Assembly (NCBI RefSeq): GCF_022869805.1
Contig: NZ_CP094974.1
Coordinates: 4,216,001-4,280,000, forward strand
Direction of reading: 5' to 3'
Source: Halosolutus halophilus
GTDB taxonomy: Archaea; Halobacteriota; Halobacteria; Halobacteriales; Natrialbaceae
Length of the DNA stretch: 64,000 nucleotides
Every line of letters starts with the position of its first letter. Position 1 is the first letter of the stretch. Below, one piece after another: positions 58,771 to 59,929 of the stretch. A program made the translations under genes and the position numbers. The notes under the pieces were generated by a model that worked only from the letters and a program-made list of their open reading frames with translations, was not told where the DNA came from and made no database searches.

Positions 58771-59071
58771 ACCCGAATACGGATCCGCCGGGTAGTTCAT
58801 GGTATCGGTCCGGCGCGAACGGCGATGCCGCGCTGGCAGACCGGCGACCTGGATCGAGATCCCCCGCAGTTACAGGCCGGCTTGCGGACCACCCCTCACC
58901 GATCGGAGTCAACGCGAACTTACTGTCTCGAAGCGATCGGATCGCGGGACGGCGCGGCCCGAGTCGCACCTCGAAAGTCCGGATTAGGAGGCGAAATCGA
59001 TCGGAACGGTGCGGTCGCTTTACTCGGCGATCGATGTACTGACCCGGTACCGGACAGGTGACCCGAAATCT
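58771..59071. other. intergenic region before the Gln/Gly-rich gene
   Basis: About 300 bp between the divergent upp and Gln/Gly-rich genes. No gene or clear repeat is seen. A short purine-rich stretch (GGATTAGGAGGCGAAATCG, near 58981) is present but not at a ribosome-binding distance from any start I support. Confidence 0.3.
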
Positions 59072-59929
59072 ATGACACACCATCAGCACCAGCCACGGCA
59101 GGGAGAGCAGCCGACCGAATCGAGGATGCACGGCCAGCGGACGGCCCAGCGTCAGATGGCGGGCCAGGGGTCGAGCAGTCCCCAGATCGCCGATTCGATG
59201 GGGGGACACCCGCCGGGCGGTCACCAGGCCAGCGGGCAGCAGATGGGGAGCCAGCAGATGACCGAGCGGACGGGCGGACAGCAACCGGGAGGTCACGGAA
59301 CCGGCGGGCAGCAACTGACCGAGCAGATGGGGGGTCAGCAGACCGGCACTCAGGCTCGATCGTTCGAGGACCACATGACCGACGAACTTCGCATCGTCCT
59401 CGAGGACTTCAGCGACCTCTCACACGTCGCCGCCTGGTGTGCGACGGAGTGTGCGGCCGGCCCGCCGGAACTCGGGACCTGTGCCAGGGTCTGCCAGGAC
59501 ATCGCCGAGATCGCCGAACTCAACGAGATGCTGATCGCCCGCGACTCGATGTTCGGTCCCGAAGCCGCGGACATGTTCATTCGCGTCGCGAACGAGGGGC
59601 TGCCGGAACTCCAGCAGTACCAGCAGCGCCATTCGCACGTCGCCGAGACGGTCGCGACGATCGAGCGGACGATGGACTCGTGCGCGTCCGTCCTCCAGCA
59701 GATCGGACAGGGGTCCCAGATGGGCGGTCAGACGTCGGATACCCGGATGGGGGGCCAGCAGACGGGCGGCCACCGAACGAGCGGGAGCGGACGACGTGGC
59801 CGGACGAGCGGCGGCCGACAGACCGGACACTACACGGACAGAGAGGGAATGCGCGAACGGGGACAGCACGGCCCGGGAACGAGCGGTGGACCGACGGGTC
59901 ATCAGGAGACGACTGGACAGCAGTACTAA
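59072..59929 (+). CDS. Gln/Gly-rich protein with a CxxxC four-helix core
   Basis: A 285-residue protein. The first about 95 residues and last about 75 are low-complexity, rich in Gln/Gly/His/Met/Thr with many GGQQ- and MGGQ-type repeats. The central part (about 98-212) is helical with C123-x3-C127 and C137-x3-C141 and a lone C204. This pattern is like Cys-rich four-helix bundles such as copper-storage (Csp/DUF326-type) proteins. I infer possible Cu(I) or other soft-metal binding; not proven. Function unknown. The His-, Met- and Gln-rich arms could also bind metal or phase-separate. A single gene. Confidence 0.7.
   Translation: MTHHQHQPRQGEQPTESRMHGQRTAQRQMAGQGSSSPQIADSMGGHPPGGHQASGQQMGSQQMTERTGGQQPGGHGTGGQQLTEQMGGQQTGTQARSFEDHMTDELRIVLEDFSDLSHVAAWCATECAAGPPELGTCARVCQDIAEIAELNEMLIARDSMFGPEAADMFIRVANEGLPELQQYQQRHSHVAETVATIERTMDSCASVLQQIGQGSQMGGQTSDTRMGGQQTGGHRTSGSGRRGRTSGGRQTGHYTDREGMRERGQHGPGTSGGPTGHQETTGQQY

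Follow-up and report, generated by a model that had tools for sequence, protein, structure and literature searches.

Towards the right-hand end of the window, the 64,000-nucleotide stretch of Halosolutus halophilus contig NZ_CP094974.1 analysed here, lies a gene for a protein in which a core of predicted copper-storage-protein (Csp) fold is flanked by two long glutamine- and glycine-rich arms; its neighbours are upp, a DUF5828 gene and an ABC transporter. We refer to this protein and its arm-bearing relatives as armed, and to the Cys-rich 'four-helix bundle copper-binding proteins' of haloarchaea, which have no arms, as canonical Csps. The features of the locus are as follows:

58993–59025, + strand: conserved upstream stretch GAAATCGATCGGAACGGTG ... 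TTTACTC, a probable promoter; a similar stretch lies upstream of most orthologues
59072–59929, + strand: armed Csp-like protein, 285 residues plus stop; ATG start, conserved in relatives
59072–59362, + strand: N-terminal Q/G/M/H-rich arm, residues 1–97, with the N-terminal tip MTHHQHQ (composition, pLDDT, tips)
59363–59719, + strand: predicted four-helix core of Csp fold, about residues 98–216 (AlphaFold2, Foldseek and VIA-align, homology)
59381–59458, + strand: helix 1, residues 104–129; C123 and C127 lie close to its end (DSSP on the model)
59438–59440, + strand: C123, at the position of MtCsp3 Cys38, a mouth residue (alignment with SlCsp3 and BsCsp3; numbering of PMC10155185)
59450–59452, + strand: C127, at MtCsp3 position 42 (alignment)
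59465–59542, + strand: helix 2, residues 132–157; C137 and C141 lie close to its start (DSSP on the model)
59480–59482, + strand: C137, at the position of MtCsp3 Cys54, a mouth residue (alignment)
59492–59494, + strand: C141, at the position of MtCsp3 Asn58 and SlCsp3 Asp61, between mouth and core (alignment)
59546–59614, + strand: helix 3, residues 159–181, without any canonical Cys (DSSP on the model, alignment)
59630–59638, + strand: H187-x-H189, what is left of the mouth His motif between helices 3 and 4; BsCsp3 has HDHDHC at the aligned position
59633–59719, + strand: helix 4, residues 188–216, carrying C204 (DSSP on the model, alignment)
59681–59683, + strand: C204, at the far end of helix 4; invariant in group A1 and present in 33 of 58 armed proteins
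59720–59926, + strand: C-terminal Q/G-rich arm, residues 217–285 (pLDDT below 50 almost throughout)
59915–59926, + strand: C-terminal tip GQQY, ending in an aromatic residue (recurs in armed proteins)

That this reading frame is not a chance one follows from its core, in which 33 columns are invariant across 30 aligned relatives and dN/dS runs from 0.02 to 0.30 in pairs taken within groups of close relatives, values that also place the core under purifying selection. Its translation has the two CxxxC pairs of the preliminary description, at residues 123, 127, 137 and 141, together with a fifth Cys, C204, that the description lacked. The arms (167 residues together) hold 18.6% Gln, 24.0% Gly, 6.0% Met, 6.6% His and 6.0% Asp plus Glu, compared with 2.9, 9.4, 1.4, 1.6 and 17.6% in seven neighbouring proteins, so that they do stand out from their surroundings as acid-poor, as had been noticed; the core is of ordinary acidity (17.8% acid residues). 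MGGQ and GGQQ repeats are present, although the 'many' once attributed to the arms was a mild overstatement for three and four copies, respectively. An origin of the arms in tandem DNA repeats was considered and dropped, the locus containing only one weak 22-base array.

In the full-length model, pLDDT falls below 50 for residues 5–92 and for nearly all of residues 217–285, in agreement with the disorder proposed earlier, and the protein accordingly has the long, Q-rich, low-complexity regions of predicted disorder by which prion-like proteins are recognized. A search of the remaining proteins of the same genome returned none that convincingly bears such arms (next match, E = 0.27). Among armed proteins, arm length and sequence vary freely while composition and tips recur: many N-termini read approximately M[ST]xQ[YHF]QQ, and Tyr, Phe or Trp, often preceded by Gln, closes the chain in 40 of 58 armed proteins as against none of 28 canonical ones. 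The terminal residue is Tyr in most groups, Trp in Halostella and Phe in several forms with nine Cys; that groups differ in this residue speaks for selection on an aromatic terminus over plain inheritance. Because many Natrinema-like members end in Arg and the Halolamina type has no C-terminal arm, the aromatic end is a tendency, not a rule.

Given a five-sequence alignment of the window protein and four orthologues, AlphaFold2 predicted residues 93–218 as a confident four-helix bundle (mean pLDDT 89.2, pTM 0.83). In a Foldseek search of the PDB, the first 27 rows were all Csps—Csp3 of Streptomyces, Methylosinus and Bacillus and Csp1 of Methylosinus—with a best TM of 0.78/0.84 and modest E-values (1.3e-3 and up); VIA-align scored MtCsp3 at Z = 15.9, and down to Z = 12.3 its rows were either Csps or PA2107 and its fusions, which have a Csp-like fold; an evidently unrelated bundle first appeared at Z = 11.9. 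The core is thus predicted to be a bundle of the Csp type, as had been suggested from the sequence, and in alignment the four paired Cys occupy positions that line such a bundle. On the model, the margin of Csps over other helical bundles is genuine but not huge, which makes the sequence evidence for Csp descent matter.

Searched directly, the core of the window protein matches no Pfam or NCBIfam family, DUF326 and TIGR04401 included, and neither phmmer nor a profile search connected it to a Csp in the PDB; the weak PDB sequence matches of the window protein, to designed coiled coils and through composition, are not credible. The link to Csps therefore runs through haloarchaeal paralogues and through armed forms with nine Cys. 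Against its own genome, the core alone found two paralogues (L002 and L003; E = 5.5e-9 and 7.8e-9), and a profile built from 15 armed proteins found the same pair at E = 5.5e-29 and 2.4e-27. Both are canonical Csps with 14–15 Cys that match DUF326 above the cut-off and TIGR04401 only below it, and L002 matches BsCsp3 in the PDB at E = 3.9e-18; their cores are about 25% identical to that of the window protein, with WCxxxC and CxRxC motifs common to both. One nine-Cys armed protein, L084, matches BsCsp3 directly (E = 1.5e-8), although nine-Cys relatives match nothing above the Pfam cut-off. We conclude that the core is homologous to genuine Csps and almost certainly descends from the cytosolic ones.

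In Csps, the main Cu(I) clusters are bound by canonical Cys of helices 1 and 3 and of the beginning of helix 4. Cys recurs in 15 columns of canonical haloarchaeal Csps, which have 13–16 Cys per protein; the armed and canonical sets compared here were separated by reading six-frame-translated open reading frames, with start codons set by rule. The window protein retains five of the 15 positions, to which helix 3 and the beginning of helix 4 contribute none: it is not a bundle lined with 13–19 Cys for tetranuclear Cu(I) clusters. The retention is selective. Across 58 armed proteins, the columns of C123, C127, C137 and C141 hold Cys in 55, 53, 56 and 57, whereas ten of the remaining eleven canonical columns hold it in 0–12, the exception being the C204 column. 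In the motif that spans helix 3, the loop and helix 4, two of three His are kept (H187 by no fewer than 90% of 30 relatives, H189 by every one of them), and other mouth ligands, among them the Cys111 equivalent, are gone in the window type; the Halostella type retains positions 38, 54, 58 and 111.

The number of Cys among armed proteins steps down from nine to 4–6 and, in one paralogue, to none. Seven proteins have nine, and these are exactly the nine mouth-side columns of the fifteen: helix 1 contributes its last three, helix 2 both of its own, helix 3 its last two and helix 4 its first two, a set that, judged by published accounts of MtCsp3 (PMC10155185, PMC5171941), would comprise the mouth and the nearest tetranuclear cluster. 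A maximum-likelihood tree of armed and canonical proteins, computed with Cys columns removed, unites all armed proteins in a single clade (support 100/97), inside which a 4–5-Cys group is nested (99/95) with nine-Cys forms branching outside it; with few columns and some long branches, the inner details of this tree are unsure and its placement of the zero-Cys paralogue is unreliable. That paralogue, on a Halorussus vallis plasmid (L109 5878–6471, the same as L131), has Q-rich arms and the tips MSQQY... and ...GSQY. Elsewhere, one genome carries tandem armed genes with nine and four Cys (L087), and one locus (L042, G110:C1:52700-54700) lacks the first half of the core and all its Cys and is probably a decayed copy.

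Close armed relatives occur in 34 of 121 Natrialbaceae genomes, and about 55 of 391 genomes of the class have an armed relative, counted at a score of at least 83 bits with most of the reading frames read. Armed members also occur in Halorussus, Halostella and Halolamina (plasmid records), those annotated being called 'hypothetical protein'. A phylum sample of 295 genomes yielded no relatives outside the order at E = 1e-8, and a search of viral contigs returned none, so we have no evidence for a viral origin. The gene is flanked by upp and the DUF5828 gene at most of the Natrialbaceae loci read, and its neighbours differ in other families; a reading of these genes as operon partners was abandoned, the upp–gene–DUF5828 order being absent outside Natrialbaceae and thus probably a matter of shared ancestry of the site. 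Several armed genes with 8–9 Cys have a small recurring reading frame nearby (MAQRTLSDDDQGKRVVNANGDRIG...; L088, L089, L107, L108), and canonical Csp genes in several haloarchaea adjoin a recurring cluster of GH15, vitamin K epoxide reductase and SDR oxidoreductase genes (L111, L167, L168).

Most Natrialbaceae armed genes are preceded by a stretch close to GAAACGGTCGTAACGGTG and then a TTTAAT-like box; Halorussus shows a weaker version of this arrangement. In the window, positions 58993–59025 are probably the promoter. As a regulon marker the stretch was rejected, giving 7–12 matches per genome at three mismatches versus 0–2 for a reversed control, mostly weak.

Compared with Csp3 of known structure (MtCsp3, BsCsp3, SlCsp3), the window protein shares a predicted four-helix fold over its whole core, the mouth Cys positions and part of the His motif that lies where helix 3 passes into helix 4, but has five Cys rather than 18–19, has lost the main cluster ligands, carries long, aromatic-tipped arms of predicted disorder, and matches nothing in the model libraries. 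Canonical haloarchaeal Csps likewise differ from it in having no arms and 13–16 Cys. The non-classical RkCsp3 subgroup (PMC10155185) is likewise a Csp variant with an altered set of Cys ligands, yet the alteration is the reverse: in RkCsp3 the main core is retained and the mouth Cys have gone, in armed proteins it is the other way round. Our literature searches returned no description of armed Csp-like proteins, and the family is apparently undescribed and nameless in the libraries searched.

What might such a protein do? In Csps, Cu(I) enters and leaves at the mouth, a role discussed in PMC10155185 and PMC5171941, and the main store consists of three tetranuclear clusters (PMC10155185); a tetranuclear cluster fills first, with mouth sites filling late and binding more weakly (PMC10155185). 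The other Cys ligands of that first-filling cluster are absent in the window type. Main-store Cys lost with the mouth kept suggests that storage was abandoned and a small site retained, and the Cu(I) storage proposed in the preliminary description is not supported: with five of 15 canonical positions, and an armed paralogue that has no Cys at all, bulk copper storage by the window protein appears unlikely from its sequence. Our preferred reading is of an exapted Csp bundle that combines a residual metal site at the mouth with arms for multivalent contacts, a combination to which we give an even chance. The bundle would have lost the Cys of its main Cu(I) clusters and retained a small Cys cluster with nearby His at the mouth, most likely for one to a few Cu(I) or for another thiophilic metal such as Zn(II); such a putative site we consider slightly the more probable outcome. 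From each chain would extend a pair of disordered, aromatic-tipped arms rich in Q, G and M, which could equally well be contact devices or not. Only if the tetramer of other Csps is conserved would the result be an eight-armed particle, a multivalent hub that may either cluster with itself or dock on partners; metal binding, tetramer and hub function are all things that we infer. Condensate formation, also raised earlier, is possible.

The zero-Cys Halorussus paralogue weighs against a metal role, since metal cannot be needed there for whatever arms and bundle do. One could therefore regard the Csp bundle as a stable oligomerization core for prion-like arms that do the work, its Cys being fold-stabilizing remnants: that paralogue keeps arms and tips, Cys are lost stepwise across armed proteins, and no copper gene was seen beside armed genes at the window locus or the relatives' loci read (at least one canonical Csp lies near a heavy-metal P-type ATPase). 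Such a metal-independent scaffold seems doubtful to us, because remnants would hardly be so selective as to leave the four mouth Cys in 53–57 of 58 proteins after most other canonical Cys had gone. The same near-invariance of two adjacent helical CxxxC pairs, with no signal peptide evident by eye in the N-terminus and thiols hence likely cytosolic, would suit a switch in which oxidative stress turns the pairs into disulfides and so alters the state of the arms; this is very unlikely, as the positions are those of Csp Cu(I) ligands, solved Csp structures contain no disulfides (PMC5171941, PMC10155185), and the Halostella type breaks the first CxxxC.

Equally improbable is genuine copper storage of low capacity, with Met/His-rich arms supplying extra sites. 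The Csp descent of the core and the 10 Met and 11 His in the arms of the window protein speak for it; the few canonical Cys that remain, the two full canonical Csps already in the genome, and an arm Met and His content that varies widely among relatives (0.9% Met and 0.4% His in the Halolamina type) speak against it. A bolder elaboration of the exapted bundle, which we rate as quite unlikely, would make it an eight-armed, metal-responsive condensate hub, in which Cu(I) at the mouth alters the association of the aromatic-tipped Q/G/M arms, which would make the protein a sensor of copper, not a store, in a cytosol of molar salt.

The family preserves intermediates in the dismantling of a storage protein, from 13–16 Cys to nine at one end only, to 4–6 and to none, within one supported tree, and with it natural proteins on which to test directly how the mouth and the core of a Csp divide their tasks. 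Haloarchaeal proteomes are normally very acidic, and the armed proteins offer a case of neutral, Q-rich, prion-like arms in such cells.
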